Shown piece by piece: positions 1,457 through 61,190 of a stretch of 64,000 nt of DNA. This DNA is from Nannobrachium achirus (taxonomy: Eukaryota > Chordata > Actinopteri > Myctophiformes > Myctophidae). A program made the translations under genes and the position numbers. The notes beneath the pieces were generated by a model. That model searched no databases. It was not told the DNA's origin and was given only the letters and a program-made list of their open reading frames with translations. Location of the stretch: the NCBI GenBank assembly GCA_963921795.1, contig OY997651.1, positions 54,024,018 through 54,088,017 on the forward strand, given 5' to 3'. Within the stretch, counting starts at the first letter, position 1. The number at the start of each line of letters is the position of its first letter.

Positions 1457-2820
1457 AGATGTCATTAAAACATGGTGAAGAGAAGACAACATGGAAGAAG
1501 TCAAATCTATTCCCACCACAACACGCTGCACTGGGACGCGTTGTGAGCTTGTAGATCTTCTATTTTCACAGAATGGTGGTCGCTCCCAGAATAGGGATGC
1601 TAGGGTTCATGTGGTTTTGTAGTGCTTATAGAAAGAACTCAACCTGATGGAGTCAGGTTGATGTGGCAAAGCTGTCCTGCTTGATGTAAACCCTAGAAAT
1701 ATAAATAGCAATATACAATGTAATGGCTGGCTTGGCAGTGTATAGGTTGATACTGTAAAAAGACCAAACTCACTGTAAGCAGTGGTGGAAAAGGTATTCA
1801 CATTTTTAATACTGACTCTGACATAATAGTGTCGTGTGGCTTTTTGGGGGATATTGTAGAGTTTGTTGCTGGATACCATGATATGTGTGAGCCTCGTAAA
1901 CCTGAAGGCAGGAGGACTCTAGTTTAATAGGCTAGATATTTGTTACTAACTTACTGTTTTTACGACAGTATATATGATTTGTTTTATGACAGCAATATGT
2001 TACTACTTTTTTACACCAGTACATGACTTTATTGGATTTATTACGGTAAAAAGAGATGGGTTTTCAGTGGCCAAATACATATCATTTTGGGGGTCCTTAT
2101 GAAAGAGTTTGAGCACCACTGATATAGAATCATAGGTTTTTCAGAAAACTGTTAAAATGAAGTAGATCATAGCCCAGTGACGTCATAGCCCTTGAAATGC
2201 GCACTTCAAAGTGTGAATCCCTCGGATTGGAAAGCGGCTATAGTTAAGAACAATTTTGCCTTCCTAAGAACGTTTCATGAATGTGACTGGACTTCACTTA
2301 GGAATTCACTTAGGAAGAAATTTAAGAACAAGTTAAGAAGAAAGTTAAGAACTTATTGGTGAATGAGGCCCATTGCTCTGCTGTGATGGCGGCTGTTTGT
2401 GTGACTGTGGTTTGACACACAGGCTGTTTCCTTTGTGGTCAGGCTCTAAATGTCAGCCTATAGTCTTCAATGTTTCATGTTGGTTATTATGTTGTCTGTT
2501 TTCAACCATAATGCTGTTTAATATGTTTAAAAAGAAAACTGAACACTAGAGAAAGAGTCAACAGATACATTTCTCTCAGATACATGGTTTATAGCGCTCT
2601 ATAATGTTATTATTCACTAAAGCACTGTTTCCCAAACAGTGGATCATAACCCATAGGCCTACGTGATGTTTGGTACATTTTGATTTTAATTAGATTTTTT
2701 TTTAATTCACAAAAAAAAACAGGAAAAAATAATTTCATTGTAAATTCATGTATATAAAAGTAGATCTACAAGCTCCATATTGCATCACAACGAGCTTGTA
2801 GATCAACTAATTTCACTAGT
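1457..2820. other. 3' UTR and shared 3' flank of gene A; no further gene seen
   Basis: The sequence after the stop codon repeats downstream of gene B (25420-26600) and, in part, downstream of gene C (39297-39880) and after the Gypsy element (60511 onward). It is therefore part of the duplicated unit. Landmarks are the GTGAGCTTGTAGATCTTC stretch near 1540 and the CACTGTAAGCAGTGGTGG stretch near 1770. I see no conserved ORF here. From about 2380 the sequence matches the upstream flank of gene C (28300 onward). Confidence 0.6.
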
Positions 2821-3283
2821 TTGGGTCGTAAGGAAACATCAAATTTCTCTTTTGGGTCTCGAGCTAAAAGGTTTGTGAACCACTGCACTAAAGTACCATT
2901 TCACTATCAAGTCAAAAGACTGGAACATAATTTGTGTAGGTGTACATCTGTGAATACAATAACTCAAGAATATGTGGATTTTCATGCAACTTGTCAAGAA
3001 GACAATAGGTTTGATGCATTGGATTCCTTGTGGAAAGTTAAGTGACAGAATACTTTATCACCCGGGACACATCACTGTCCTGTCAAATGAATTCATAAAG
3101 TCCAAATGATGTCAGTCTGTGAACAAAATAACTGATGAATTATGAGTAGGCTGGCCCAAAGAGATGATCTACTTTTGGGGATCAAAGGTCAAAATGACCA
3201 TCAATAACGTCCAGGTGGGTTTTCATGACACTTTGTGGGAATGATCAGCAGAATGGCTTAATGTTGTGTTTGAAAGGTCAATG

Positions 3284-4193
3284 CTTAAAGGACCCACACC
3301 ATGAATTTTCTTTTTTTTTTGGGGTCCCACTGGCACCTTCTATCCTCACAAAGTCCTATTTCTGTATATTGTGTCTTTCTCTGGTTTTGGTAAGACAGAC
3401 AGAGATGAAAAGCTTTCCACAGGTTCTCAGAACAGTGCTGTTCTGAGAGTTGATCCGTGTGACGTCACACGGATTCCCGTTTTTTTTTTCAGTAAAAAAA
3501 AAAAAATCAAAAAAAAAAGTTTTTCAATTTTTTTTTTTCAAAACTTTTTTTTTTTTCAAAACTTTTTTTTTTTTTTTTTTAAATGCAATGCAGAGTCAAA
3601 AAAAAATATTTTTTCAAAAAATATTTTTTTCAAAACTTCAAAAAGAAATTTTTTTCAAAAAAAAATGTTTTTAAAAAAAAAATGTTTTTTCAAAAAACTT
3701 TTTTTTTCAAAAACTTTTTTTTTCAAAACTTTTTTTTCAAAAAACTTTTTTTTCAAAAACTTTTTTTTCAAAAAACTTTTTTTTTTTCTGGAAAAACCCC
3801 ACTAGATGCGCCCCTGAGCAAACAGAGGCCGTTTTGGTATTGCAGCTGGAGAGCCTCATTATAGTAGAGCTAGAACAAACAAAAAGAATGGTCAGAGTGT
3901 TTGTTGAGGGTTAAAACCTGTCTAATGCTGCATTCACACTGCAGATATATAGTTGAACGTTTAGCTTGGTAATTCAATGTTATCTCAATGGAAACCAGCT
4001 TTAAAGCTTTCAAACCTTCGTTTGGTGTGTGTCTTGTATCTTTAAAGCTGGTTTCCATTGAGATAACATTGACCAAGCAAGCAAAACGTTCAACTATATA
4101 TCTGTAGTGTGAATGCAGCATAAGACTCAATTTTGAGCATATATTTATACAAAAAATATAGTTTTAAAAGCATGGTGTAGGCCCTTTAAAGAG
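3284..4193. mobile_element. TIR element with A-tract/T-tract core, upstream of gene B
   Basis: Near-perfect terminal inverted repeats are visible: TTAAAGGACCCACACCATG at about 3285 and CATGGTGTAGGCCCTTTAAA at about 4171-4190. This suggests a MITE or non-autonomous TIR element with a TTA/TAA target. Gene C upstream flank lacks this segment. The core (3479-3790) alternates runs of T and A broken only by C. A second copy of the right part lies at 12752-13280 because of the large duplication. Confidence 0.5.
3926..4120. mobile_element. 195-bp palindromic MITE with TAA target duplication
   Basis: The arms are inverted copies starting TGCTGCATTCACACTGCAG on the left and ending in its complement on the right. 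The element is flanked by TAA at 3923-3925 and 4121-4123. The duplicate of this locus at about 13206 contains the uninterrupted sequence with a single TAA, so the empty site defines both ends exactly. A 3-bp TAA duplication is typical of PIF/Harbinger-type MITEs; the superfamily is inference. Confidence 0.8.
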
Positions 4194-4524
4194 GAATACC
4201 AACCATTTTCAACATTGAACTGTCATTAATATACCTTTGAGTTGTGGAAATAAGAAAAAGGTCCTAGAACTATTTTGAGTTTTCATTTTTTCTGTTTCAT
4301 TGTGAATGAAGAACAGTTGGCCTGTGTCTTGAAAACACAATTTGTATGCAGTACAAGCCTTTAATTCTACTTCTAAGCCATGCTATTTAGAACTGCTATA
4401 TGATGTGTTCATACACATCTTTATTTAGGGCCCTGTTCACAGGAAGGAAGAACAGATCTGAATATGCTGAAATAGGCTGAGCTCATAGCACAAAGTTTCG
4501 CAACCCTTTAACCCTCCCACCCCA

Positions 4525-4604
<80 letters not shown>
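4525..4604. repeat. (CA)n microsatellite upstream of gene B exon 1
   Basis: A pure CA tract lies directly before the proximal promoter. Matching tracts occur at 13613-13697 (the duplicate) and at 30660-30754 with 32572-32602 (gene C, split by an L2 insertion). Confidence 0.95.
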
Positions 4605-4605
<1 letters not shown>

Positions 4606-4765
4606 ACAACAGTACTTATAAGTTCACTGTGATCAGGAAGTAGAAGGTTCTTCAGAGTCGTTCATCACTAGCCTCGCATAGCCAGGCAATATCATACTGC
4701 GTTGCCTTGTGTTAGCAATGGCAGACTTAGTCTAGCTGAGTTAGGCTAGTTCATCACAGGAGAGG
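4606..4765 (+). promoter_or_regulatory. Putative proximal promoter/5' UTR of gene B, left copy
   Basis: It contains a TATA-like CTTATAAGTT (4616-4625) and an ETS/PU.1-type AGGAAG core (4635-4640), a motif common in myeloid promoters. Both are shared with the right copy. An 80-bp mini-element sits just before the ATG. That this is a promoter is inferred from position and conservation between gene copies. Confidence 0.45.
4669..4748. mobile_element. 80-bp mini-element in the 5' leader, 9-bp target duplication
   Basis: The element starts TAGCCT and ends AGGCTA, and GTTCATCAC is duplicated on both sides (4660-4668 and 4749-4757). Gene C has the empty site, with one ATTCATCAC followed directly by AGGAGAGG. 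The same insertion is at 13762-13841 in the right copy, so it predates the large duplication. A 9-bp duplication suggests a Mutator-like element; hAT with 8 bp is also possible. Confidence 0.7.
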
Positions 4766-4796
4766 ATGGATCTCATCTCACCCCGTGTGCTCCTCT
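4766..4796 (+). CDS. Signal-peptide exon 1 (left copy), stranded upstream of the LINE
   Basis: The exon encodes M-D-L-I-S-P-R-V-L-L and ends in phase 1 at a CT|GTGAGT donor. It is identical to 13859-13889. To reach gene B exon 2 at 20858 a transcript starting here would need to splice over the LINE, the array and a second copy of exon 1. It may be an alternative first exon or a relic. Confidence 0.6.
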
Positions 4797-4917
4797 GTGA
4801 GTATATATCACTATTATTACTAGTAGCTCTATCGAACTATACTACTAGAGCAGGGGTTGACACTAAGGTCTCAGAGGCACTTGCCCATCGGGCAAGTACA
4901 GGTCATGTTCTATCTAT

Positions 4918-7900
4918 CTAGGTCGTCCTCAGACGAGCCCTCCATCGTTGTTTCCAGTCATCTCGGTTCTCCATACATCTGGCCAGCTCATTGGTGTTCT
5001 GTGTCCCTACGTCTTCCTTGAGTACGTCCACGTATGTTTTTGTGGGACGTCCTCGCGGCCGGTGCCCGTGTGTTGGCTCCCACAGTACCAATTTGCTGGC
5101 TGGAAGCTCCTGGTGTCTTTGGCAGTGTCCTGCTAGTCTCATTCTTCTGGTGGCAATTTTCTCGCTTACCTTTGGTATTCCCTCATACAGGCTCTCGTTT
5201 GTAACATGTGCACTCCTGTTGATGTTGAGTACTGCACGCAACATTCTAGTGTAGCACCCGTCTAGAGACTTCTGCAGGGTTGGCTTCAGGGTCCAGCATT
5301 CACTGCCATAGAGGAGAACAGACTCCACCGTTGCAAAGAAGAAGCTAAGTTTGATTTGGCGGGGGAGGTTAGAGTTCCATACACTGTTCATGCCGTTCAG
5401 GGCCCTCCAAGCGAGTGCCTTCCTTACTTTAAGGTCTTTCTCAGTTGAGTCGACCCATGCGCCCAGGTACTTGAAGTCCTTGACTTCCTTCAACACAGCT
5501 CCTTCTGTTGTTGTCAGAGGTGAGTGATCAGGTAGGTTATAGGTGATAACCTCAGTTTTCTTAGCGTTTAGCCTGAGACCAACTTTGGCACATTCTATCT
5601 CCACCCTGTTCAGGAGTTCTTGTGCTTGTTCCATGCTGTCGGAGAGCAGGCTGATGTCGTCCGCATAGTCCAGGTCTGTCAGAACTACTGCGGGATGCCG
5701 TCTTGACCTCCTTGGTGTTAGCGTGAAGCCAAGCTCTTGTTCCCGTCCCCCTATGGCTTTCCTGAGCGCATAATCTAGAACTATGATGAAGAGGTAGGGG
5801 GCTAGGGTGTCTCCTTGCATTACCCCAGCTCGGATGTCAAACACCTCACTGCTGCCATCTGGGGTCACCACTTTGGCCCTTGTTTTTGCGTACATGGTCT
5901 CGATAGCCCGGAGAATGTTGGGAGGGACATTGTAGGCCTCAAGGATCTTCACCATCTTGCTTCTGTGGATAGAATCAAAAGCCTTTTTGAAGTCAATGAA
6001 GCACAGTACAGCTGCTAGGTTGTTCTTTTTCACCTCCTCTATTAATCTCCTTAATGCCAGGATCTGTGCTACGGTTGTTCTCTCCTCTCGAAAACCATTT
6101 TGGTTCTCTCTCAGGTGAGGGTCGATGGCATGCCGTATCCTGTTCAGTATCATTCGGTTGAAGACCTTAGCAGTGATACATGTCAGGCTGATGCCTCTGT
6201 AGTTGTCTGGCTTTGAGAGGTCTCCAGCTTTAGGCACCGGGATGATATTAGACAGAGACCATATTTCAGGTTGCTTGTTGTGCTGTAGAGCATTGTTGCA
6301 AAAGTCTAGGATGAGGTTGTCTAGGTCGCAGTTCTTCAAGACCTCTGGGGGTATGCCATCCGGCCCAGCACTCTTTCCCTCTCTTAGGGTGGATTTTGCC
6401 CTGGCGAGCTCGCTGATTGTGAAGGGTCCATCGTCGATGTTCAGGCCCTGGAGGACTGTCGGTATATTTTCCTCCTCTCCCTCTTCCACTGATGTTCCCA
6501 GGAGCCTCTGGAAGTGGTCGAACCATGTTGCCACCCTCTCCTCTGGGCTGTGTCCCTCCACCTGGCCCTCCTTGGCCCTCTTCCGCCCTGTCATCTCATT
6601 TATTACCTTCCAGGCCTCCCCGTATTGCCTTTCACCTTGCGCTGCCTGCACTCTTCGCACACTTTCCATCACTTCTTCCCCTTTGATGGTGTCGTAGGTG
6701 CTGAAGAGAGACTGTTTGGCTTCGTTCAGTGTCTCGCGACCCTCCTCTGTTGGCTCACGCTCAAAGTTGAGTCGTGCTTCCTCCATCCTGCCTCGTGCTG
6801 CTACAACCTTCGGGTGTCTGGACCGTGGTGGTGCTCTTACTCTGTTCAGCACTGGCACGCACAGTCTGGTCGCCTCCTCATTCGCTGTGATGAATCTCCC
6901 ATATTCACGGCTGGGCTCCTCTCCCCTATCCAGCTGCCGAAAGCGCTTCCTGACTTCCTCCGTGTACCTGGTTTGGAGGCCCGGATTGGTCGTGAATGCC
7001 TTCCAGTCATGCCGAATCTTGGGGCTTGGCTTTGGGACCCTGAGGCTCAGTCGCACCCTCATGGAGACCACACGGTGATCAGAGCCTACAGAGCTGAACG
7101 TGCTGTATGGCTCAGCGTTCAGGATGGAATTCCTCCACTTTTGCCTCACTAGGATATAGTCCAACTGGCGTTGCATACCCGAGGCTCGGTCCTGGAAGGT
7201 CCACCTCTTCCCTGTTTTCTTCCGGAACATGGTGTTCGCTGCCAGGAGCTGGTGTTCCATGAGAAGGGCTGTGAGGTATGCGCCGTTGCGGTTGGTAGAC
7301 TCATGGTATGGGAATGGTGCATCCTCCTGTCCAATCCTGGCGTTGAAGTCGCCAAGGATTGCCAGGAAGTTGTGCGCTGGGACACCTCGGACTGCTGTTG
7401 TGAGGTCCTCATAGAACTTCTCAACCTCCTCAGGTAATGCCGTGTTAGTGGGCGAGTACACCACTAAGACTGTTGTTACTGGGTTACCTGCGAATTCAGC
7501 CATGAGGATCCTTTCGGTGTGCTTGTGGACCCGTCGGAGGGCCCTGCGCGCCAGAGAACCTAGCAATAGCCCTACTCCCCCTGTTGCAGCCTGGGCCCCG
7601 TTTCGCCCCGCAGATGCAGTGATGAACGTGCGTTTCTCCACTGTGTGGTAAACTATCTGGTCGTCAGTGTGGACTCTTCTGTGTTCCTGGACTCCCAGGA
7701 TCTCTACCCCCTGTTCTTCAGCACAATGTGCCAATTCCACCAGTCTAGCTTCTTCTCTCACTGTGCATGCGTTGAAGGTCCCCATTACAAATGGTCTCCG
7801 ACAACGCATGAGTGCATTGGGTGGGATGCTGTGGTCAGACAGAACCCTCCCTCGTTCCCGTGGGTTTGAGGTCCTGTCGTCATGATGTCCTCCGGAAGGC

Positions 7901-7983
7901 GGACCAGCACCACCATCCGCCGCGATGCTCCTGCGGACTCCCGCCGCTGGAAGTATAGGATTTGGGATGACTTTGTTCTTCAT
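4918..7983 (-). CDS. LINE ORF: APE-type endonuclease plus reverse transcriptase (RTE-like)
   Basis: This is a single uninterrupted protein of 1021 residues. The N-terminal part holds an exonuclease-endonuclease-phosphatase fold: N in FNACTV (about residue 73), E in VQEHR, YSPTN, LGDFNAR (about 213) and SDHRVVS (about 303). The reverse transcriptase follows, with the PDGIPPEVLK segment, PDNYRGISL, a DFKKAFDSIH block, GVMQGDTLAPYLF and the catalytic LDYADDISLL (about 770-779). The C-terminal part carries a GHRPRGRPTKTYVDVL segment common in RTE-like proteins. One ORF of about 1000 residues with APE endonuclease and no RNase H fits the RTE clade; the exact family is not certain. All catalytic motifs I could check are present, so the protein may be active. 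A short upstream ORF with a good ATG context lies in the leader near 8083. Confidence 0.9.
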   Translation of the reverse strand: MKNKVIPNPILPAAGVRRSIAADGGAGPPSGGHHDDRTSNPRERGRVLSDHSIPPNALMRCRRPFVMGTFNACTVREEARLVELAHCAEEQGVEILGVQEHRRVHTDDQIVYHTVEKRTFITASAGRNGAQAATGGVGLLLGSLARRALRRVHKHTERILMAEFAGNPVTTVLVVYSPTNTALPEEVEKFYEDLTTAVRGVPAHNFLAILGDFNARIGQEDAPFPYHESTNRNGAYLTALLMEHQLLAANTMFRKKTGKRWTFQDRASGMQRQLDYILVRQKWRNSILNAEPYSTFSSVGSDHRVVSMRVRLSLRVPKPSPKIRHDWKAFTTNPGLQTRYTEEVRKRFRQLDRGEEPSREYGRFITANEEATRLCVPVLNRVRAPPRSRHPKVVAARGRMEEARLNFEREPTEEGRETLNEAKQSLFSTYDTIKGEEVMESVRRVQAAQGERQYGEAWKVINEMTGRKRAKEGQVEGHSPEERVATWFDHFQRLLGTSVEEGEEENIPTVLQGLNIDDGPFTISELARAKSTLREGKSAGPDGIPPEVLKNCDLDNLILDFCNNALQHNKQPEIWSLSNIIPVPKAGDLSKPDNYRGISLTCITAKVFNRMILNRIRHAIDPHLRENQNGFREERTTVAQILALRRLIEEVKKNNLAAVLCFIDFKKAFDSIHRSKMVKILEAYNVPPNILRAIETMYAKTRAKVVTPDGSSEVFDIRAGVMQGDTLAPYLFIIVLDYALRKAIGGREQELGFTLTPRRSRRHPAVVLTDLDYADDISLLSDSMEQAQELLNRVEIECAKVGLRLNAKKTEVITYNLPDHSPLTTTEGAVLKEVKDFKYLGAWVDSTEKDLKVRKALAWRALNGMNSVWNSNLPRQIKLSFFFATVESVLLYGSECWTLKPTLQKSLDGCYTRMLRAVLNINRSAHVTNESLYEGIPKVSEKIATRRMRLAGHCQRHQELPASKLVLWEPTHGHRPRGRPTKTYVDVLKEDVGTQNTNELARCMENRDDWKQRWRARLRTT

Positions 7984-8171
7984 GGTTGGCTTTACAATGC
8001 TAGTTTAAGGACTGTGGGGTCGCAAATTCTCACAGTCCTGGTTTTTACCTCAGAGTGACCTTCTCCTAGGTGGGTTGCCTACCATGGCTAAGAGCCCCAC
8101 CCGCCCCGACTGATAGCTCAGATTTCCGGATCTGAATGGTTCGCATGCTGATGTTTTAACTCACTGAATGG
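7984..8171 (-). other. LINE 5' leader between array and ORF
   Basis: This stretch of about 190 nt on the minus strand lies between the innermost monomer and the ORF start. It contains a CCATGG start context (plus 8082-8087) opening an 11-codon upstream ORF that stops before the main ATG. Such an upstream ORF could lower translation of the main ORF. Confidence 0.55.
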
Positions 8172-11100
8172 TTCTAATTAAATACAAGTTCTAAAGTGTC
8201 GAAGTCTTACCCTAATATCCCTCTGGTGAGTGCCTTCAGCTGTGTTCTCCCTGTTCCTGTCTGAGCCATCAGTGATAGTGTGTCTCCACTGTCTCCCTTT
8301 ATATGCCACTTGGTTAGCATATTTAGGGGAGTGTGCAGTGGTGAGCCAATCAGCTTAGGCAGAGGTGAGAACAGTGGAGTGGCTGCTAAAACCCCCATAG
8401 ATACTAAGCTAACAAAGTGTTCTAATTAAATTCAACACAGAGACCAACCCTGTTATAATTAAATACAGGTTCTAAATGTCAAAGTCTTACCCTAATATCC
8501 CTCTGGTGAGTGCCTTCAGCTGTGTTCTCCCTGTTCCTGTCTGAGCCATCAGTGATAGTGTGTCTCCACTGTCTCCCTTTATATGCCACTTGGTTAGCAT
8601 ATTTAGGGGAGTGTGCAGTGGTGAGCCAATCAGCTTAGGCAGAGGTGAGAACAGTGGAGTGGCTGCTAAAACCCCCATAGATACTAAGCTAACAAAGTGT
8701 TCTAATTAAATTCAACACAGAGACCAACCCTGTTATAATTAAATACAGGTTCTAAATGTCAAAGTCTTACCCTAATATCCCTCTGGTGAGTGCCTTCAGC
8801 TGTGTTCTCCCTGTTCCTGTCTGAGCCATCAGTGATAGTGTGTCTCCACTGTCTCCCTTTATATGCCACTTGGTTAGCATATTTAGGGGAGTGTGCAGTG
8901 GTGAGCCAATCAGCTTAGGCAGAGGTGAGAACAGTGGAGTGGCTGCTAAAACCCCCATAGATACTAAGCTAACAAAGTGTTCTAATTAAATTCAACACAG
9001 AGACCAACCCTGTTATAATTAAATACAGGTTCTAAATGTCAAAGTCTTACCCTAATATCCCTCTGGTGAGTGCCTTCAGCTGTGTTCTCCCTGTTCCTGT
9101 CTGAGCCATCAGTGATAGTGTGTCTCCACTGTCTCCCTTTATATGCCACTTGGTTAGCATATTTAGGGGAGTGTGCAGTGGTGAGCCAATCAGCTTAGGC
9201 AGAGGTGAGAACAGTGGAGTGGCTGCTAAAACCCCCATAGATACTAAGCTAACAAAGTGTTCTAATTAAATTCAACACAGAGACCAACCCTGTTATAATT
9301 AAATACAGGTTCTAAATGTCAAAGTCTTACCCTAATATCCCTCTGGTGAGTGCCTTCAGCTGTGTTCTCCCTGTTCCTGTCTGAGCCATCAGTGATAGTG
9401 TGTCTCCACTGTCTCCCTTTATATGCCACTTGGTTAGCATATTTAGGGGAGTGTGCAGTGGTGAGCCAATCAGCTTAGGCAGAGGTGAGAACAGTGGAGT
9501 GGCTGCTAAAACCCCCATAGATACTAAGCTAACAAAGTGTTCTAATTAAATTCAACACAGAGACCAACCCTGTTATAATTAAATACAGGTTCTAAATGTC
9601 AAAGTCTTACCCTAATATCCCTCTGGTGAGTGCCTTCAGCTGTGTTCTCCCTGTTCCTGTCTGAGCCATCAGTGATAGTGTGTCTCCACTGTCTCCCTTT
9701 ATATGCCACTTGGTTAGCATATTTAGGGGAGTGTGCAGTGGTGAGCCAATCAGCTTAGGCAGAGGTGAGAACAGTGGAGTGGCTGCTAAAACCCCCATAG
9801 ATACTAAGCTAACAAAGTGTTCTAATTAAATTCAACACAGAGACCAACCCTGTTATAATTAAATACAGGTTCTAAATGTCAAAGTCTTACCCTAATATCC
9901 CTCTGGTGAGTGCCTTCAGCTGTGTTCTCCCTGTTCCTGTCTGAGCCATCAGTGATAGTGTGTCTCCACTGTCTCCCTTTATATGCCACTTGGTTAGCAT
10001 ATTTAGGGGAGTGTGCAGTGGTGAGCCAATCAGCTTAGGCAGAGGTGAGAACAGTGGAGTGGCTGCTAAAACCCCCATAGATACTAAGCTAACAAAGTGT
10101 TCTAATTAAATTCAACACAGAGACCAACCCTGTTATAATTAAATACAGGTTCTAAATGTCAAAGTCTTACCCTAATATCCCTCTGGTGAGTGCCTTCAGC
10201 TGTGTTCTCCCTGTTCCTGTCTGAGCCATCAGTGATAGTGTGTCTCCACTGTCTCCCTTTATATGCCACTTGGTTAGCATATTTAGGGGAGTGTGCAGTG
10301 GTGAGCCAATCAGCTTAGGCAGAGGTGAGAACAGTGGAGTGGCTGCTAAAACCCCCATAGATACTAAGCTAACAAAGTGTTCTAATTAAATTCAACACAG
10401 AGACCAACCCTGTTATAATTAAATACAGGTTCTAAATGTCAAAGTCTTACCCTAATATCCCTCTGGTGAGTGCCTTCAGCTGTGTTCTCCCTGTTCCTGT
10501 CTGAGCCATCAGTGATAGTGTGTCTCCACTGTCTCCCTTTATATGCCACTTGGTTAGCATATTTAGGGGAGTGTGCAGTGGTGAGCCAATCAGCTTAGGC
10601 AGAGGTGAGAACAGTGGAGTGGCTGCTAAAACCCCCATAGATACTAAGCTAACAAAGTGTTCTAATTAAATTCAACACAGAGACCAACCCTGTTATAATT
10701 AAATACAGGTTCTAAATGTCAAAGTCTTACCCTAATATCCCTCTGGTGAGTGCCTTCAGCTGTGTTCTCCCTGTTCCTGTCTGAGCCATCAGTGATAGTG
10801 TGTCTCCACTGTCTCCCTTTATATGCCACTTGGTTAGCATATTTAGGGGAGTGTGCAGTGGTGAGCCAATCAGCTTAGGCAGAGGTGAGAACAGTGGAGT
10901 GGCTGCTAAAACCCCCATAGATACTAAGCTAACAAAGTGTTCTAATTAAATTCAACACAGAGACCAACCCTGTTATAATTAAATACAGGTTCTAAATGTC
11001 AAAGTCTTACCCTAATATCCCTCTGGTGAGTGCCTTCAGCTGTGTTCTCCCTGTTCCTGTCTGAGCCATCAGTGATAGTGTGTCTCCACTGTCTCCCTTT

Positions 11101-12750
11101 ATATGCCACTTGGTTAGCATATTTAGGGGAGTGTGCAGTGGTGAGCCAATCAGCTTAGGCAGAGGTGAGAACAGTGGAGTGGCTGCTAAAACCCCCATAG
11201 ATACTAAGCTAACAAAGTGTTCTAATTAAATTCAACACAGAGACCAACCCTGTTATAATTAAATACAGGTTCTAAATGTCAAAGTCTTACCCTAATATCC
11301 CTCTGGTGAGTGCCTTCAGCTGTGTTCTCCCTGTTCCTGTCTGAGCCATCAGTGATAGTGTGTCTCCACTGTCTCCCTTTATATGCCACTTGGTTAGCAT
11401 ATTTAGGGGAGTGTGCAGTGGTGAGCCAATCAGCTTAGGCAGAGGTGAGAACAGTGGAGTGGCTGCTAAAACCCCCATAGATACTAAGCTAACAAAGTGT
11501 TCTAATTAAATTCAACACAGAGACCAACCCTGTTATAATTAAATACAGGTTCTAAATGTCAAAGTCTTACCCTAATATCCCTCTGGTGAGTGCCTTCAGC
11601 TGTGTTCTCCCTGTTCCTGTCTGAGCCATCAGTGATAGTGTGTCTCCACTGTCTCCCTTTATATGCCACTTGGTTAGCATATTTAGGGGAGTGTGCAGTG
11701 GTGAGCCAATCAGCTTAGGCAGAGGTGAGAACAGTGGAGTGGCTGCTAAAACCCCCATAGATACTAAGCTAACAAAGTGTTCTAATTAAATTCAACACAG
11801 AGACCAACCCTGTTATAATTAAATACAGGTTCTAAATGTCAAAGTCTTACCCTAATATCCCTCTGGTGAGTGCCTTCAGCTGTGTTCTCCCTGTTCCTGT
11901 CTGAGCCATCAGTGATAGTGTGTCTCCACTGTCTCCCTTTATATGCCACTTGGTTAGCATATTTAGGGGAGTGTGCAGTGGTGAGCCAATCAGCTTAGGC
12001 AGAGGTGAGAACAGTGGAGTGGCTGCTAAAACCCCCATAGATACTAAGCTAACAAAGTGTTCTAATTAAATTCAACACAGAGACCAACCCTGTTATAATT
12101 AAATACAGGTTCTAAATGTCAAAGTCTTACCCTAATATCCCTCTGGTGAGTGCCTTCAGCTGTGTTCTCCCTGTTCCTGTCTGAGCCATCAGTGATAGTG
12201 TGTCTCCACTGTCTCCCTTTATATGCCACTTGGTTAGCATATTTAGGGGAGTGTGCAGTGGTGAGCCAATCAGCTTAGGCAGAGGTGAGAACAGTGGAGT
12301 GGCTGCTAAAACCCCCATAGATACTAAGCTAACAAAGTGTTCTAATTAAATTCAACACAGAGACCAACCCTGTTATAATTAAATACAGGTTCTAAATGTC
12401 AAAGTCTTACCCTAATATCCCTCTGGTGAGTGCCTTCAGCTGTGTTCTCCCTGTTCCTGTCTGAGCCATCAGTGATAGTGTGTCTCCACTGTCTCCCTTT
12501 ATATGCCACTTGGTTAGCATATTTAGGGGAGTGTGCAGTGGTGAGCCAATCAGCTTAGGCAGAGGTGAGAACAGTGGAGTGGCTGCTAAAACCCCCATAG
12601 ATACTAAGCTAACAAAGTGTTCTAATTAAATTCAACACAGAGACCAACCCTGTTATAATTAAATACAGGTTCTAAATGTCAAAGTCTTACCCTAATATCC
12701 CTCTGGTGAGTGCCTTCAGCTGTGTTCTCCCTGTTCCTGTCTGAGCCATC
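8172..12750 (-). repeat. 280-bp tandem monomer array, 16 full repeats plus partial end units
   Basis: The period is exactly 280 bp. The innermost unit, next to the LINE, diverges at its inner edge (8172-8206). The following units look identical to one another base for base, and the outermost unit is cut at 12750. On the minus strand each unit reads ATTGG (inverted CCAAT), about 40 nt of spacer, CATATAAAGGG, then a purine-rich start region, and about 90 nt further a good splice donor (AGG|GTAAGA). The 63-codon ORF in each unit is probably chance. Confidence 0.9.
8271..8350 (-). promoter_or_regulatory. Core promoter of the LINE-proximal monomer (one of 16)
   Basis: On the minus strand the inverted CCAAT box is at 8350-8346 and TATAAA at 8303-8298. 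If transcription starts at 8271, they lie at about -75 and -32 to -27, the textbook spacing for an RNA polymerase II promoter. The start is not guessed from the TATA alone: the matching position in the outermost unit (12750/12751) is exactly where the insertion ends. The same pattern recurs every 280 bp. Confidence 0.6.
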
Positions 12751-13611
12751 ACACGGATTCCCGTTTTTTTTTTCAGTCAAAAAAAAAAAAATCAAAAAAA
12801 AAAATGTTTCAATTTTTTTTTTTCAAAACTTTTTTTTTTTTCAAAACTTTTTTTTTTTTTTTTTTAAATGCAATGCAGAGTCAAAAAAAAATATTTTTTC
12901 AAAAAATATTTTTTTCAAAACTTCAAAAAGAAATTTTTTTCAAAAAAAAATGTTTTTAAAAAAAAAATGTTTTTTCAAAAAACTTTTTTTTTCAAAAACT
13001 TTTTTTTTCAAAACTTTTTTTTCAAAAAACTTTTTTTTCAAAAACTTTTTTTTCAAAAAACTTTTTTTTTTTCTGGAAAAACCCCACTAGATGCGCCCCT
13101 GAGCAAACAGAGGCCGTTTTGGTATTGCAGCTGGAGAGCCTCATTATAGTAGAGCTAGAACAAACAAAAAGAATGGTCAGAGTGTTTGTTGAGGGTTAAA
13201 ACCTGTCTAAGACTCAATTTTGAGCATATATTTATACAAAAAATATAGTTTTAAAAGCATGGTGTAGGCCCTTTAAAGAGGAATACCAACCATTTTCAAC
13301 ATTGAACTGTCATTAATATACCTTTGAGTTGTGGAAATAAGAAAAAGGTCCTAGAACTATTTTGAGTTTTCATTTTTTCTGTTTCATTGTGAATGAAGAA
13401 CAGTTGGCCTGTGTCTTGAAAACACAATTTGTATGCAGTACAAGCCTTTAATTCTACTTCTAAGCCATGCTATTTAGAACTGCTATATGATGTGTTCATA
13501 CACATCTTTATTTAGGCCCCTGTTCACAGGAAGGAAGAACAGATCTGAATATGCTGAAATAGGCTGAGCTCATAGCACAAAGTTTCGCAACCCTTTAACC
13601 CTCCCACCCCA

Positions 13612-13612
<1 letters not shown>

Positions 13613-13697
<85 letters not shown>
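13613..13697. repeat. (CA)n microsatellite, right copy
   Basis: A pure CA tract homologous to the one at 4525-4604 but of different length. This is one of the differences between the two flanking direct repeats. Confidence 0.95.
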
Positions 13698-13698
<1 letters not shown>

Positions 13699-13858
13699 AC
13701 AACAGTACTTATAAGTTCACTGTGATCAGGAAGTAGAAGGTTCTTCAGAGTCGTTCATCACTAGCCTCGCATAGCCAGGCAATATCATACTGCGTTGCCT
13801 TGTGTTAGCAATGGCAGACTTAGTCTAGCTGAGTTAGGCTAGTTCATCACAGGAGAGG
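13699..13858 (+). promoter_or_regulatory. Putative proximal promoter/5' UTR of gene B, right copy
   Basis: It matches 4606-4765, with the CTTATAAGTT box, the AGGAAG ETS-type core (13728-13733) and the 80-bp mini-element at 13762-13841. This copy is on the gene side of the LINE and drives exon 1 at 13859 without obstruction. The LINE array points the opposite way from here. Confidence 0.5.
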
Positions 13859-13889
13859 ATGGATCTCATCTCACCCCGTGTGCTCCTCT
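13859..13889 (+). CDS. Gene B exon 1: first half of signal peptide
   Basis: The exon encodes M-D-L-I-S-P-R-V-L-L plus one nt and ends at GTGAGT. Joined to exon 2 (LSTFLSYGYCQ) it gives a typical hydrophobic leader. Gene C has the equivalent at 32677-32707. Confidence 0.75.
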
Positions 13890-16800
13890 GTGAGTATATA
13901 TCACTATTATTACTAGTAGCTCTATCGAACTATACTACTAGAGCAGGGGTTGACACTAAGGTCTCAGACCATGTTCTACTTGCCCGAAGGTAATTCCCAC
14001 TTGCCCGAAAAGTAAATCGTCCATTATAAAATGATAGGTACGATTTTAATTACCGCTCAATTTAACACTTATTTCTTTACTTTCTGGGGCTGTGTGATAA
14101 AATGTCATACCTCAATACATCCAAATCCAAATACCAAATACTTTAGCTATGATTGAATATGTCTATGGTTTCACACTTGTTATTTTATATTTTTAAATGT
14201 AGCAACAGTAAAAACAGCACATTATAGGTAAATAGTGCTCTTATTTTACATTCCACAGACCAGAAGACAGCGCACTGGCCACGTTCAGGTGTTTAGACAG
14301 ATATCTCGTGTTGTGTTTATTCACGATATTCCTGGCCATTCTATGGAGGCTGCCATTTTCTTTTACAGAGGGTGTGTGCTTAAAAAAACATCTTTTCACT
14401 TCCTCCCAAGTAAGGAAGTGACACGGAATTGTCTGTTGCCAGATTTTGCCAAAGAAATAAGCCCAACAGAAGCAACTAGGATCTACTTTACATTTACAAT
14501 TGAAAATAGCAGATCAGCAAGCGCACAAATTGTGAGCTTGTATATTTGCTATTTAAAAAATTATTGAGGGGAAAAAAAGAAATTTTAATATTTTTGAAAG
14601 ATTTTAACAACATAAATCTGTGTGGAGGTCCCTGGCACGCACCACATATTTTCAGCATTTTCTGCAACTGTGGACAAATATGTTACACTGGGGTCCTTGA
14701 TATGAAAAGATTTGGGAACCACTGGTTTAAAAAATATTAGAAAGTAAGCCCCTAACACAGTATCCTGCTCGCTCAAACGGGTTAAATATATGAACTGCAT
14801 AGCCTCCCCCCCCCCCCCCCCCTTCTCTTTGTTGTTGTTGTCTAGAGTTGGTATTGTTCGTTATTGTATTGTTTTCTTGCCCTGTTATTGTTTTGTTTTG
14901 TTTTGTTATTGGCTCATTGTAATGACCGTAATCTGTCAGTAATCCGCCTGTGCCAATCAAGTTGTGCCTGTTATGTCAGCCCTTGGGCTGGTGTATTTGT
15001 TTTTTAAAAGAAAAAAACCCAATAAAATACTAATCAAAAAAAAAAAAAGAAAGTAAGCCCAATAAACAACCACACAAATTGCTTATTATAAGCAGACATG
15101 GCAACACCGGTTCATTCAGAGCCAAGAGCCCAGAGCGCCTCTACTGACACTTTAATGCAAGGACACAGGAAACCAAATGATGTTTTTTATTTTCTTTCAG
15201 GATGTGAACAGGAAGCCGGGGGCGGGGCCAGGAATAACGTGAATAGACATTTGTGTCCCCTCTCAAATGAGCACTTGCCCTGTTGGGCAACCTGAAAGCC
15301 AACTTCACCTGCCCTGACGTTTTATTTACCTGCCGAGGGCAGGTGGGCAAGCCTTAGTGTCAATGCCTGACTAGAGTATATATCACTATTATTACTAGCT
15401 CTATTGAACTAGAGTATATATCACTATTATTACTAGTAGCTCTATTGAACTAGAGTATATATCACTATTACCAGTAAGACTCCCTAATCGGGAGATAAGC
15501 GACCGTTGGTCGCTTATCTCCACAAATAGGCCAAAAGTTTGTTTTACCAATTATCAAGACATACGGGCAGTTGACAGTTTGCCATGGTTACTCATTGAAG
15601 TTGAATCTCCATATATGGAGATAACCTACGCATCACACTAAGTCTGACCTCACCAGCCCATATTTGGGCATGAGCAACTTATGTCTCCATATATGGAGAT
15701 ATGATGACATCACACAGTCCTCAGCCGATGATGTGGCGTGATGTCATACAATACACAAACGAGCCCTACAGTATAAAGGGGCAATTCTTGCCAGGAAAGA
15801 AGCATTTCTTCGACTCAGACCTTATCGCCAGCTTATCTCCACAAATAGGCCAAAAGTTTGTTTTACCAATATAAGAGTTGGTTGCTAGGGTAAAAAAGAC
15901 ATGGTTGCTATGGTAAACAGTTGGTTGCTAGGGTAAAAAAATGGTTGCTATGGTAAACAGTTGGTTGCTAGGGTAAAAAAACATGGTTGCTATGGTAAAC
16001 AGTTGGTTGCTAGGGTAAACAGTTGGTTGCTAGGGTAAAACCATGGTTGCTAAGGTGGTTGCTAACGTACACTAACAGACCAGCAACAACAGACTGTTGC
16101 CACAGCAACGTACACAAAGGTTCATACTGATGTCAGCAGTGTGATGTCATACTGATGCGGAGATATGAGCAGGGCAAAGGTGTGACGTGTGACGTGACGG
16201 ACGGCCGGTGGAGGTTTTGATACTAAACTGCGACCTTACGGTCGCAATTACTAGTAGCTCTATTGAACAAGAGTAAATTAATATTATGTCATAGTCATAA
16301 ATGATATGTTCTTGGTTTAGTCCTACCTATCATCCTAGATTACGGAGTCACTCACTACACTGTCTCTCTGCATTTGATGAATTTGATGTGTTTATCTTCA
16401 GTATCTTAAATCGTTCTGGATGAAGAGCGTCTGCTAAATGCCTAACTTTTATGATGATGATAACTGAAATACTTTGTTTGGATATTAGAATAGTAATGCA
16501 AAGCCTTTTAAATGCATTCTCCTGCATCATCAAGTCTGAAACTATTAATAAAAATTGGTGCGCACTGCGCAGCCTCAGATATTAAGCTTGTAAATGCTAT
16601 CACCAGTAAGACTCCCTAATCGGGAGATAAGCGACCGTTGGTCGCTTATCTCCACAAATATCACAGCCTCCACCTCTCACGTCATACGGGCAGCCATAGT
16701 TACACCTGGAATGTTGAATCTCCATATATGGAGATAACCTACCCATCACACAAAGTCTGACCTCACCAGCCCATACCTGGGCATGGACGACTTATATCTC

Positions 16801-19253
16801 CATATACGGAGATGGCCATATATGGAGATACGATGACATCACAGAGTCCACAGCTGATGATGTGGCGTGATGTCATACAATACACAAACAAGCCCTATAT
16901 AAAGGGGCAATTCTCACCAGGGAAGAGAGCATTCCCCACTAGCTGAGTATCTTAAGATGGTTGGATGTGATGATAAGCCACAAATAGGCCAAAAGTTTGT
17001 TTTACCAATTATCAAGACATACGGGCAGTTGACAGTTTGCCATTGTTACTCATTGAAGTTGAATCTCCATCTGAATCCCTTTTATGCCCATATATGGAGA
17101 TCCCTGCTCTGAGTATCTGACATCACTAATCCCTTTTATGCCCATATATGGAGATCCCTGCTCTGAGTATCTGACATCACTAATCCCTTTTATGCCCATA
17201 TACAGTATGGAGATCCCTAACAGAATCCATTTTATGCCCATATATGGAGATACCTGCTCTGAGTATCTGACATCACTGTGATGTCACCTGTTTATGCCTA
17301 AATATGGAGATCCCTGCTCTGAGTATCTGACATCACTGCGATCTCACCTGTGATGTCACAGTGACACATCACCTCAGTATCTGTGATGTCACAGTGACAC
17401 ATCACCTCAGTATCAGGCGTTACACGTATACATTGAGCAGGGCAAAGGTGTGACGTGTGTGACGGACGGACGGACGGACGGACGGCCGGTGGAGGTTTTC
17501 ATACTAAACTGCGACCTTACGGTCGCAATAAATATGAAACGTTTTCAACAGGCTAAAGGTAATTGCGACCGAAGGTCGCATTATACCCTGAAAAACCTCA
17601 TAGCTTGTCTGTCTGACTGTCTGGCTGTACAGGAAGTGATGTCACGTGATGTCAGTGAGTCACAGTGATGTGGTTCAGAATGACTCATATATGGGCATAA
17701 AAAGGATGTCACATGACATCACTTATAAAAGTCCATATCAATCCCCCAAAAAAATAAACTTGTATGCCAATACATGGAGATTTCTGATGTCATAAATCCC
17801 ATGCCGAAAATGAGAATTACTAATTAACGTAAGTTTTTTTTATGCCCATCTCCATGTATGGGCATTAGGGTTGGGTATCGTCGGCGATACTTTTAATGGT
17901 ATCGACTCACTGACGTCGATACTATCGAGTATCGTTTTACGTAAAAACGAACGATACCTTGTTTCGATACTTTTGAATGCACCCCTTGCCGGTCGCATCT
18001 GTAACAGTTGGGCTACTGAAAGTTTAATGACTGCTTTAGTAGGCTACACTCGTTACTGTGAAAATAGCCAAGAATAGCCTTTAATGTTTATCATTATGAT
18101 AATGATCCAACGTCTATACAATAGCCCATAGAAAAAGGCAAATAATAATTATAATAATAATAATAAATAAAAAGTATCGAAAATGGTATTGAAAAAGGTA
18201 TCGTATCGATTCCCAGGTATCGAAAAAGGTATCGTATCGATTAAAAGGTGAACGATACCCATCCTTAACTCTCCCCACGCTTTGAACGATAACGCTCGCC
18301 CCATTTTTTACAGAACCTCGATGCCAATACGGCACTCGTTCGGTTCGTTCGTCTGATGACTGTAAGCTGATGAGGGGTCGCGCGGCCGTTTACTGTAAAC
18401 ACATTTTCCGCTGTGATGGTGTAAAAAATCCATTATGCGTTAGATCAACGGAGAACAATTCACTTCCTTGTTGATTTCCTCTGGCCCGGAGGCTCTGTAG
18501 CCAGTGACTGCTCTGAATGTACGGCAACACATAGCAGGACAATTCACATTCATTCTCGCATGACGCCGCCCTCTGCTGCCTGGCAGACCAAAGTGCACTA
18601 TTGCACAACCAAAAAAAATAAAAATAAATAAATAAATGTCTGTCTGTCTATCTACTATAACGTCGCAAAGGTAAGCCGCTTTTTGATGGCGCCAGACCCA
18701 ATAAATAAATAAATAATCTGGCAGTAGGAGAGTTAATGGGCATAGCATATATTGTATGTATATGGATACATAATTATCATTAATAAAGGATAAAATAAAA
18801 TAAAAAGTCCATATATGGTCATTCCCAGAAAAAGAACAAAAACCTTTTATGCCCATACATGGAGATTTCTGATGTCACAAATCCCAGGCCGAAAATGAGA
18901 ATGTTACGTTACCCCCTTATGCCCACATATGGAGATCCACTGGCATCAAACCAAGGCCCTAACTCACCAAGGCCCTGCTTGGCATTACTTACGTACGTTT
19001 TATGCCCATATATGGAGATTCCTATATTGTCAATATTAAGGACATTATTAAGGATATTATGTTATCAATATTAAGGACATATATGGGAATGCCCATATTT
19101 GATAATATCCATATATGGGCATGTTTTGACATAACATAACTGTAATGAAGGGGTCTCCATATATGAGTAACTGGTCCCATATACCGGTACATCACTGGCC
19201 AGATAGATGGCCAAGGGTCGCATGTCACCCTGAGGTTGCAAGTCACCCTGAGG

Positions 19254-38490: not shown

Positions 38491-38498
38491 GAACTTAA

Positions 38499-38962
38499 CT
38501 CTCCTACTGCCAGATTATGTATTTATTTATTGGGTCTGGCGCCATCAAAAAGCGGCTTACCTTTGCGACGTTATAGTAGATAGACAGACAGACATTTATT
38601 TATTTATTTTTATTTTTTTTGGTTGTGCAATAGTGCACTTTGGTCTGCCAGGCAGCAGAGGGCGGCGTCATGCGAGAATGAATGTGAATTGTCCTGCTAT
38701 GTGTTGCCGTACATTCAGAGCAGTCACTGGCTACAGAGCCTCCGGGCCAGAGGAAATCAACAAGGAAGTGAATTGTTCTCCGTTGATCTAACGCATAATG
38801 GATTTTTTACACCATCACAGCGGAAAATGTGTTTACAGTAAACGGCCGCGCGACCCCTCATCAGCTTACAGTCATCAGACGAACGAACCGAACGAGCGCC
38901 GTATTGGCATCGAGGTTCTGTAAAAAATGGGGCGAGCGTTATCGTTCAAAGCGTGGGGAGAG
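38499..38962 (+). mobile_element. 464-bp piggyBac-like MITE, copy 2
   Basis: Flanked by TTAA at 38495-38498 and 38963-38966. Same length as, and inverted relative to, 18269-18732. The contained 72-codon ORF is identical, so little time has passed since transposition. Confidence 0.75.
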
Positions 38963-39296
38963 TTAATGAATGGCAACACTCTGAATGAGTGGGGGGAATG
39001 GGGATTCATTTCTTCATATTCCACAGTTAAAGAAACCCTGTGGATAAAATAATAAACAGCATGATGTTCAATGACTCAGTATCCTGTTTTTAAAATGTAT
39101 CTTTATTTCAACCTTTAGATACAGACGTGTAGGACAACCCAAGATGACGCATGCTCTGTGGATCAAGTCAAATGGATCTTCACCATTAATGCAGGGACAC
39201 CGCGATACAAATGGATCTTCAGAATGAATGCAGAGTAACATTCATGTCCATTCACATGCAAGAACCATGTTCACTATATGCATGCACGGCAGGTTG

Positions 39297-40456
39297 ATAC
39301 TGTAAAAAGACCAAACTCACTGTAGGCAGTGGTGGGAAAGTAAATGCACTTGGCAGTGTAGGTAGATACTGTAAATAGACTAAATTCAATGTAACAGGTT
39401 TGCTCCATAACAGATAAAGGAGTGTTTTAGCATACATTTTCTGTTTATGATTTCTTTATGTCTGTAGTATGACTTTACTTGTTTTATGATTTTCTTGGGA
39501 TTTGTTGGACAACATCTTGTATTTCCTGATGAAATATGCATTTTATAATGTTCTTGTTTTTTTATGACTTGTATTAACATAATAGTCTTGTGTGAAATTT
39601 TTGGGGGATATCGCAGAGTCTGTTGCTGGATACTATGATATTTCTTTCTTACTTTTTCTTTTACAACAGTATATATGATTTATGTTATGACAGTAATATG
39701 TTATTACTATTTTACACAAGTACATGACTTTATTGGATTTATTTAGATAAAAAGAGATGGGGGTTCGGCGGCCAAATACATATAATTTGGGGGGTCCTTG
39801 ACATGAAAGAGTTTGAGCACCACTGATCTCAGAAAACTGTTGGGATTTAGAAGACATTTATAGAATGTCCCTCAGGTCTTAATGGGTTAACATGTATAGT
39901 AGCTGAATTAAGTTAGACAGTTAGTCAGTAGGACTGTCTTGTATTCTAAGTGGGGGTTTTATCTCACCCTTTTTTTTCTTTGAAACACCAAACTTAGTTT
40001 TGTGTCTGCTTACCTTGTAAATATTGTAAAACGTCTTGCACAATACAGCAATGTTTTGCTCCTCAGTCCTTGGTTTGGTCTCCTTGATTTACATCCCATT
40101 ATGCTCATCACCATTGTCATTTTCCTAAACTAATTTAAGTTATGTACTATTTTCTATTTAATTTATACCATATCATTGCTCTTTTGTGGATTCACTGACT
40201 ATACTGTACATAATATGCTGTATGATGTTTTTCTTACCTAAAATTCTCATACATGGATATTTTCAGACGACGAAGCGGCCTGAAAATCTTGTCAAAAACA
40301 CACGTGATATGCCTATACATCGAGACTTGTGCATATTTCCAAAGTGACAATTTAAGAAGGGATATTTTATTTTAGTTTAGAAATATTAAACTTGAAACAG
40401 GGTCACATAATTGTACACTGAAATGGAATGCTTCCCTCAGAACACTATGTGTCTAA
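39297..40456. repeat. Receptor-cluster 3' flank, third copy
   Basis: Homologous to 1740-2120 and 25700-27400. The part from about 39775 recurs almost unchanged at 60511-61190. No ORF of note. Confidence 0.65.
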
Positions 40457-60296: not shown

Positions 60297-60510
60297 TGTT
60301 GTGTATTAACCATACATAGTTACTGTTTCTTGCTATGTGTGTAAGTTGTCTCTGTTCCTTTAAGTGCTGGGCTGGGGGGGGTGTCTTATTCCAGTGTGGC
60401 TCTGCTGCCAGAGAATGTATGCAGCTCCTGTTGTCATGTTTGCAGCTGACAAGTAAAGACTAACCTACCCTACTGCTGGCCTGATTATTTGGTCTCCACA
60501 GACATAATAC
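60297..60510 (+). mobile_element. 3' LTR of Ty3/Gypsy element
   Basis: 214 nt, preceded by the purine tract. The small differences from the 5' LTR mean the insertion is not brand new. Confidence 0.85.
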
Positions 60511-61190
60511 ATATCATTTTGGGGGTCCTTGACATGAAAGAGTTTGAGCACCACTGATCTCAGAAAACTGTTGGGATTTAGAAGACATTTATAGAATGTC
60601 CCTCAGGTTTGAATGGGTTAACATGTATAGTAGCTGAATTAAGTTAGACAGTTAGTCAGTGGGACTGTCTTGTATTCTAAGTGGGGGTTTGTCTCACCCT
60701 TTTTTTCTTTGAAACACCAAAATTAGTTTTGTGTCTGTTTACCGTGTAAATATTGTAAAAAGTCTTGCCCAATACAGCAATGTTTTGCTCCTCAGTCCTT
60801 GGTTTGGTCTCCTTGATTTACATCCCATTATGCTCATCACCATTGTCATTTTCCTAAACTAATTTAAGTTATGCACTATTTTCTATTTAATTTATACCAT
60901 ATCATTGCTCTTTTGTGGATTCACTGACTATACTGTACATAATATGCTGTATGATGTTTTACTTTCTCATACATGGATATTTTCAGACAACGAAGCGGCC
61001 TGAAAATCTTGTCACAAACACACGTGACATGTCTATACATCGAGACTTATTTCCAAAGTGACAATTTAAGAAGGGATATTTTATTTTATTTTAGAAATAT
61101 TAAACATGAAACAGGGTCACATAATTGTACACTGAAATGGAATGCTTCCCTCAGAACACTATAGTGTCTAAGTCACATCTGCTCACAGTG
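60511..61190. repeat. Receptor-cluster 3' flank, fourth copy, without its gene
   Basis: Almost identical to 39780-40456 but preceded by the Gypsy LTR instead of a receptor gene. Continues at 63835 after the hAT insertion. Confidence 0.75.

Follow-up and report, generated by a model that had tools for sequence, protein, structure and literature searches.

Kilobase-sized target-site duplications (TSDs) are a rare but already published outcome of long interspersed nuclear element (LINE) insertion, and we describe here an unusually clean natural example from the fish Nannobrachium achirus, found in a 64,000-nucleotide stretch of contig OY997651.1 (the whole of which is called the window below). 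TSDs longer than 20 bp have been termed long (PMC4245944), and a recent study of RTE elements limited its TSD search to 10–49 bp (PMC13295347). In wild-type chicken DT40 cells, one of 25 insertions of the engineered fish LINE ZfL2-2 carried a TSD of 1,228 bp (PMC2666801). Human L1 insertions in cells deficient in nucleotide excision repair (NER) had TSDs of 5 bp to 5.3 kb with a median of 1,495 bp, compared with 2 bp to 1.6 kb and a median of 14 bp in complemented XPD+ cells; in earlier work with HeLa cells, at most 10% of events had TSDs above 100 bp, and the authors suggested a distant, unrelated second nick as the origin of the large ones (PMC5223499). An L1-mediated tandem duplication of 22.6 Mb has been described in cancer (PMC7058536), and long flanking duplications of the long terminal repeat (LTR) element HERV-K(HML-2), one of 250 bp that was confirmed and another estimated at 450 bp, are reported with the authors' proviso that some may be pseudo-TSDs (PMC5488345). 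The published kilobase LINE TSDs that we found come from engineered LINEs in cultured or repair-deficient cells. No germline kilobase LINE TSD was found in the literature searched by title and abstract, a search outside of which most subscription journals lie, so that its absence is unproven.

In the window, two copies of a segment designated T flank a full-length LINE, and the LINE with its tandem monomer array fills exactly the interval between them (Table 1). The copies were compared by self-BLAST and global alignment, which placed them in direct orientation with 4 substitutions over 1,223 aligned bases. Extra sequence is present in the left copy only as a 198-bp insert resembling a miniature inverted-repeat transposable element (MITE) and 27 bp near the right edge, and in the right copy only as 6 bp within a (CA)n tract and a single base in a poly-A tract. 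Chance is excluded as the source of this likeness. The LINE 5' end overlaps T by 3 bp (TGA) and the LINE 3' tail overlaps it by 4 bp (TAGA). Both edges of T coincide with native ends of the element, namely the (TAGA)n tail and the position at which the 5' ends of related copies cluster, and no separate short TSD was found at the junctions, where the best exact match is 4 bp, a length reached by 87% of mispaired flanks. An earlier note on this DNA had described a LINE flanked by a duplication of about 1.23 kb between positions 3467 and 13978; the duplication was borne out, and the positions and size given there are accurate to within 2 bp, but the additional 198 and 27 bp in the left copy are not mentioned. 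A single insertion of a young, intact LINE of the apurinic/apyrimidinic endonuclease (APE) type very probably duplicated about 1.23–1.26 kb of its target. The arrangement is real to the extent that the assembly is trustworthy.

Table 1. Coordinates of the duplicated segment T, the LINE between its copies and associated features, in window positions
Feature	Position	Strand	Description
Left copy of T	3465-4912		1,448 bp including the 198-bp MITE-like insert and 27-28 bp absent from the right copy; on the 3' side of the LINE, which is on the minus strand
Right copy of T	12749-13978		1,230 bp; lies 5' of the LINE and runs on into the outer flank
MITE-like insert	3924-4121		Terminal inverted repeats and TAA duplication (by eye); left copy of T only
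Left-copy-only 27-28 bp	4876-4903		Near the right edge of T
Dispersed repeat	3283-4195		About 0.7 kb without the interrupting MITE-like insert; runs across the left edge of T; in the right copy it is cut off at 12749
Full-length LINE	4909-12751	-	About 7.84 kb; 5' end TGATGGCTCAG, 3' tail (TAGA)3
Single uninterrupted open reading frame (ORF)	8004-4918 (4918..8004)	-	1028 aa, with domains of an APE-type endonuclease (PF03372) and a reverse transcriptase (PF00078)
Monomer array at the LINE 5' end	8171-12751	-	16.4 tandem 280-bp monomers; 16 TATAAA boxes

The element has the features of an APE-type LINE. An AP-like endonuclease and a reverse transcriptase are encoded in one ORF (29.1 bits for PF03372 and 124.2 bits for PF00078, both above cut-off), a defined 3' tail is followed by differing 3' flanks, and some copies are 5'-truncated, starting within the element body (L014, L026, L029 and L030). 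Between the window ORF and that of any of the four nearest siblings (L002, L005, L008 and L014), 1 of 3,087 bases differs, and the window copy is young and intact. No further sequence of the same LINE was found elsewhere in the window. Of the 120 homologues listed, 11 came with an organism name (fish 5, lancelet 3, sea urchin 1, oyster 1 and annelid 1), and the top-scoring ones among these 11 are from fish. The element may belong to the RTE clade, of which its microsatellite-like tail is suggestive.

Further copies were identified by searching the assembly (1.66 Gb in 564 contigs) at the DNA level, which resulted in 41 rows from the best 40 of 3,266 candidates. Thirty loci were taken for flank analysis, L001 being the window, and ten further LINE copies (11 rows) lay outside it. 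A (TAGA)n tail is present in all 30 loci (29 siblings and the window), and because the 3' flanks, compared by inspection, differ beyond this common tail, the 30 loci are separate insertions. A second subfamily is made up of 13 of the 29 siblings and shows a likeness of about 97% to the window copy, with 39 gap positions in the alignment of 11 of the 13 and a different monomer of 318 bp. The LINE is represented by two young subfamilies with different tandem 5' monomers, 280 and 318 bp, and among the resolved copies of the 280-bp subfamily the array ranges from about 1.3 monomers (L009) to 5.6 kb (L008). The 5' end was resolved in 26 of the 29 siblings (19 and 7); L002, L004 and L012, in which it was not reached, were omitted, L004 stopping at a contig end. 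Short and variable TSDs were found in this family: an exact match of 7–11 bp lies beside the junctions in 12 of the 26 siblings, a length of 7 bp being reached by 3.3% of mispaired flanks, and one of the 12, L020, sits in a local tandem repeat. The other 14 siblings have no flank match of at least 7 bp. Two copies lie in or near genes, one (L026) inside an array of tRNA genes (tRNA-Asp, Gly, Val, Val, Asp) and, by eye, within a tRNA-Asp gene, and another (L029:4583-4663) beside or inside an annexin-coding exon matching PF00191.

The 5' boundary of the window copy was examined against siblings whose 5' end falls within the array, giving ten copies of the 280-bp subfamily including the window. 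If the position within the monomer is expressed as a phase, the window copy begins at 0/+1 and seven of the nine siblings begin within −5 to 0, the two others starting at +8 (L009) and +78 (L008). Each of the 16 TATAAA boxes of the window array lies 32 bp ahead of the position at which these 5' ends cluster, and in the single 318-bp monomer examined a TATAAA lies 33 bp ahead of the corresponding position. By analogy with mouse L1, which has promoter monomers, we infer that the monomers may act as promoters. The left edge of T coincides with a probable RNA 5' end of the LINE, since both the sibling 5' ends and the TATAAA spacing mark that monomer position.

The dispersed repeat at the left edge of T bears on the polarity of the insertion. 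This repeat continues through the outer edge of the left copy, as it does in nine of the ten relatives fetched, and in the right copy it stops at the junction with the LINE. A repeat intact at the left outer edge and cut on the right is the polarity expected of a target-LINE-target order, and this polarity, together with T edges that are the LINE 3' and 5' ends and with the lack of a short TSD, upholds the order proposed in the earlier note. Joining the inner end of the left copy to the outer flank of the right copy (after 13978) forms an 11-bp inverted repeat, TCGGGCAAGTA/TACTTGCCCGA, which suggests that these two ends were once contiguous and that the 27–28 bp belonged to the original target and have been lost from the right copy. 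The genome was also searched with positions 13070–13985 (916 bases, the first 320 bases of T lying outside this query). Query bases 1–275 are part of a dispersed repeat, and beyond base 275 T matched, among the best 40 candidates, only its two places in the window and, around the (CA)n tract, two short stretches with lengths of 65 and 76 bases. Most of the non-repeat sequence of T therefore exists, among those candidates, in two copies only, which counts for a single insertion.

The small differences between the T copies were tallied without the MITE-like insert and the CA length change, and with the 27-bp indel and its neighbouring substitution taken as one event. This left five events. Three fall in low-complexity sequence no more than 57 bp from the left edge, another lies 37 bp or less from the right edge, and the fifth is interior. 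Their clustering may reflect repair error, with the reservations that the tract is itself error-prone and that the grouping was noticed only afterwards. Haplotype exchange, a later jump of the MITE-like element or haplotype mixing in the assembly are further possible sources of the differences between the copies. The terminal inverted repeats of the MITE-like element (3924-4121) are long.

The flanks of the siblings were then searched for a comparable arrangement, covering about 1.5 kb of 3' flank for most loci, about 6.5 kb for six, and 5' flanks of 177 to 4,380 bases. Within these flanks, a LINE between two copies of its target was found in none of the 26 resolved siblings, and in L006, L010, L017, L021, L023 and L024 the roughly 6.5 kb of 3' flank contained no repeat of the 5' flank end. 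In the cases of L012 and L008, the best 40 candidates included no further copy of the 3' flank on the 5' side, the first 650 or so bases of the L008 flank being a dispersed repeat. Including the window, a kilobase duplication is present in 1 of 27 resolved copies (exact 95% interval 0.1–19%), and the window insertion is an outlier in its own family. Several loci with flanking repeats were considered and rejected. The apparent 1.3-kb repeat (94%) around L025 is explained by flanks that derive from an abundant repeat (46 rows in one search and 40 in the other), that at L026 reflects the tRNA-gene array with its period of about 1.39 kb, and those at L019, L020 and L028 are local tandem repeats. 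At L022, the final 90 bases of the 5' flank match bases 456–545 of the 3' flank at 96%, with the remainder of the would-be duplication unmatched; the 3' flank itself holds tandem repeats, which explain the 90-bp match only in part.

One sibling outside the 26, L002 (G000:C21:11334441-11353331), is a possible second long duplication or a possible insertion into a recent tandem repeat. Bases 1090–1505 of its 3' flank, as query, have a 100% match on the 5' side, about 12.5 kb off, with no match listed there for bases 1–1,089, and on the 3' side itself the flank recurs after about 1,562 bp. The 5' side of L002 is complex, and the mapping search gave no row near the array end. Upstream of the L002 LINE, a second leader-like stretch is separated from the monomer array by a dispersed element of about 626 bp (L049; query 2764-3390, minus strand), found at 100% in more than 20 of the places listed, which may be another very young transposon in a complex locus.

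Compared with the systems described above, the window insertion resembles the ZfL2-2 case, in which a fish LINE likewise produced a direct target duplication of a kilobase as a rare event among short alterations, and the rate of 1 in 27 agrees with the 1 in 25 given there; unlike the window LINE, ZfL2-2 was an engineered element in cultured cells (PMC2666801). L1 in NER-deficient cells shares the kilobase TSDs at LINE insertions, which by that account are common when XPA, XPC or XPD is missing, whereas here a single one was found among the 27 resolved copies (PMC5223499). The cancer L1 case also has a single LINE insertion where the two units of a direct duplication meet, but is of megabase scale, somatic and associated with a small L1 fragment (PMC7058536). 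HERV-K(HML-2), like the window LINE, is a germline element with an unusually long TSD, and differs in being an LTR element with a shorter duplication (PMC5488345).

For the insertion itself we infer the following order of steps. The endonuclease would nick one strand at the right edge of T, between TAGA and ACATG, where the (TAGA)n tail of the RNA would anneal and prime target-primed reverse transcription, and a full-length complementary DNA (cDNA) would be made back to the transcription start in the outermost monomer. Instead of joining the target about 10 bases away, as is usual, the cDNA end would be joined through the 3-bp microhomology (TGA) to DNA 1.23 kb off, and repair synthesis would leave one copy of T on either side of the LINE. 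The distant end may have lain at a second nick in the same duplex or, alternatively, on the sister or homologous chromatid, two cases that sequence does not tell apart. The earlier note had held that a kilobase duplication needs a second-strand nick far from the first; such a nick stands as one possible mechanism, and it is not the sole one, template switching to another chromatid being a second. In that form of the single insertion, the cDNA end would have annealed to or invaded the sister or homologous chromatid 1.23 kb away and the right copy of T would have been copied from it. The 3-bp microhomology at the 5' junction is in keeping with this, as is the joining to a sister chromatid proposed for the 22.6-Mb L1-mediated duplication (PMC7058536), and the T copies differ as two haplotypes would, by the MITE-like insert, the 4 substitutions and the 27-bp indel, around an almost unmutated LINE. 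However, four of the five small events lie either in the low-complexity tract or close to a junction, places at which repair errors are likewise expected, and the same picture would result if the site had later crossed over with an empty haplotype or if the MITE-like element had jumped later, so that we put the switch forward as a tentative and somewhat doubtful version. That same disparity between LINE and T copies is the ground for the narrower proposal that the cDNA end switched to the homologous chromosome 1.23 kb away and the germline insertion captured an allelic segment, the T copies then stemming from two haplotypes, which we consider unlikely.

Some observations weigh against a single insertion. 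The T copies, with 4 differences in 1,223 bases, the MITE-like insert and indels of 27, 6 and 1 bp, diverge more than the LINE ORF does from each of its four nearest siblings (1 in 3,087), and thus appear slightly older than the LINE; this excess leaves room for an older duplication, for haplotype exchange or for an assembly error that mixed haplotypes. In addition, the inverted-repeat motif ACTTGCCC occurs at seven places in the window, several of them near the site, and for this reason the argument from contiguity in the joined empty site is not strong. If a tandem pair of T copies had existed first and the LINE had inserted later at their exact junction without a TSD, the older look of the copies would be explained, and the 14 of 26 siblings without a flank match of at least 7 bp would be in line with it. 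Such an insertion would have to hit a single junction, with a margin of about 3 bp, in about 2.4 kb of sequence, however, and the LINE lies exactly between the copies rather than splitting one unit and leaving the other intact, which makes this course of events highly improbable. If the assembly had set two haplotypes of T on either side of one LINE, the differences between them could be allelic, and among the best 40 candidates no other contig carried an empty allele, which may mean that the assembly is a purged primary one. Yet the native 5' end of the LINE joins the start of the right copy directly, with an overlap of only 3 bp and without any N in the window, and a false join should fall in sequence common to both sides and not precisely where the 5' ends of siblings cluster; we regard an artefact as quite unlikely. 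The single insertion with a kilobase target duplication is retained as the best explanation. A natural copy that is nearly unmutated suggests that this outcome also reaches a genome assembly, where it creates a local duplication that searches for short TSDs overlook, and such copies could be used to ask how the second strand gets attached.

Two other repeat pairs were observed in the window. Positions 18259-18736 and 38495-38973 form an inverted pair of 479 bp with 99% identity, probably two copies of a young transposon, and positions 39775-40456 and 60506-61171 form a direct pair of about 680 bp with 94.7% identity.

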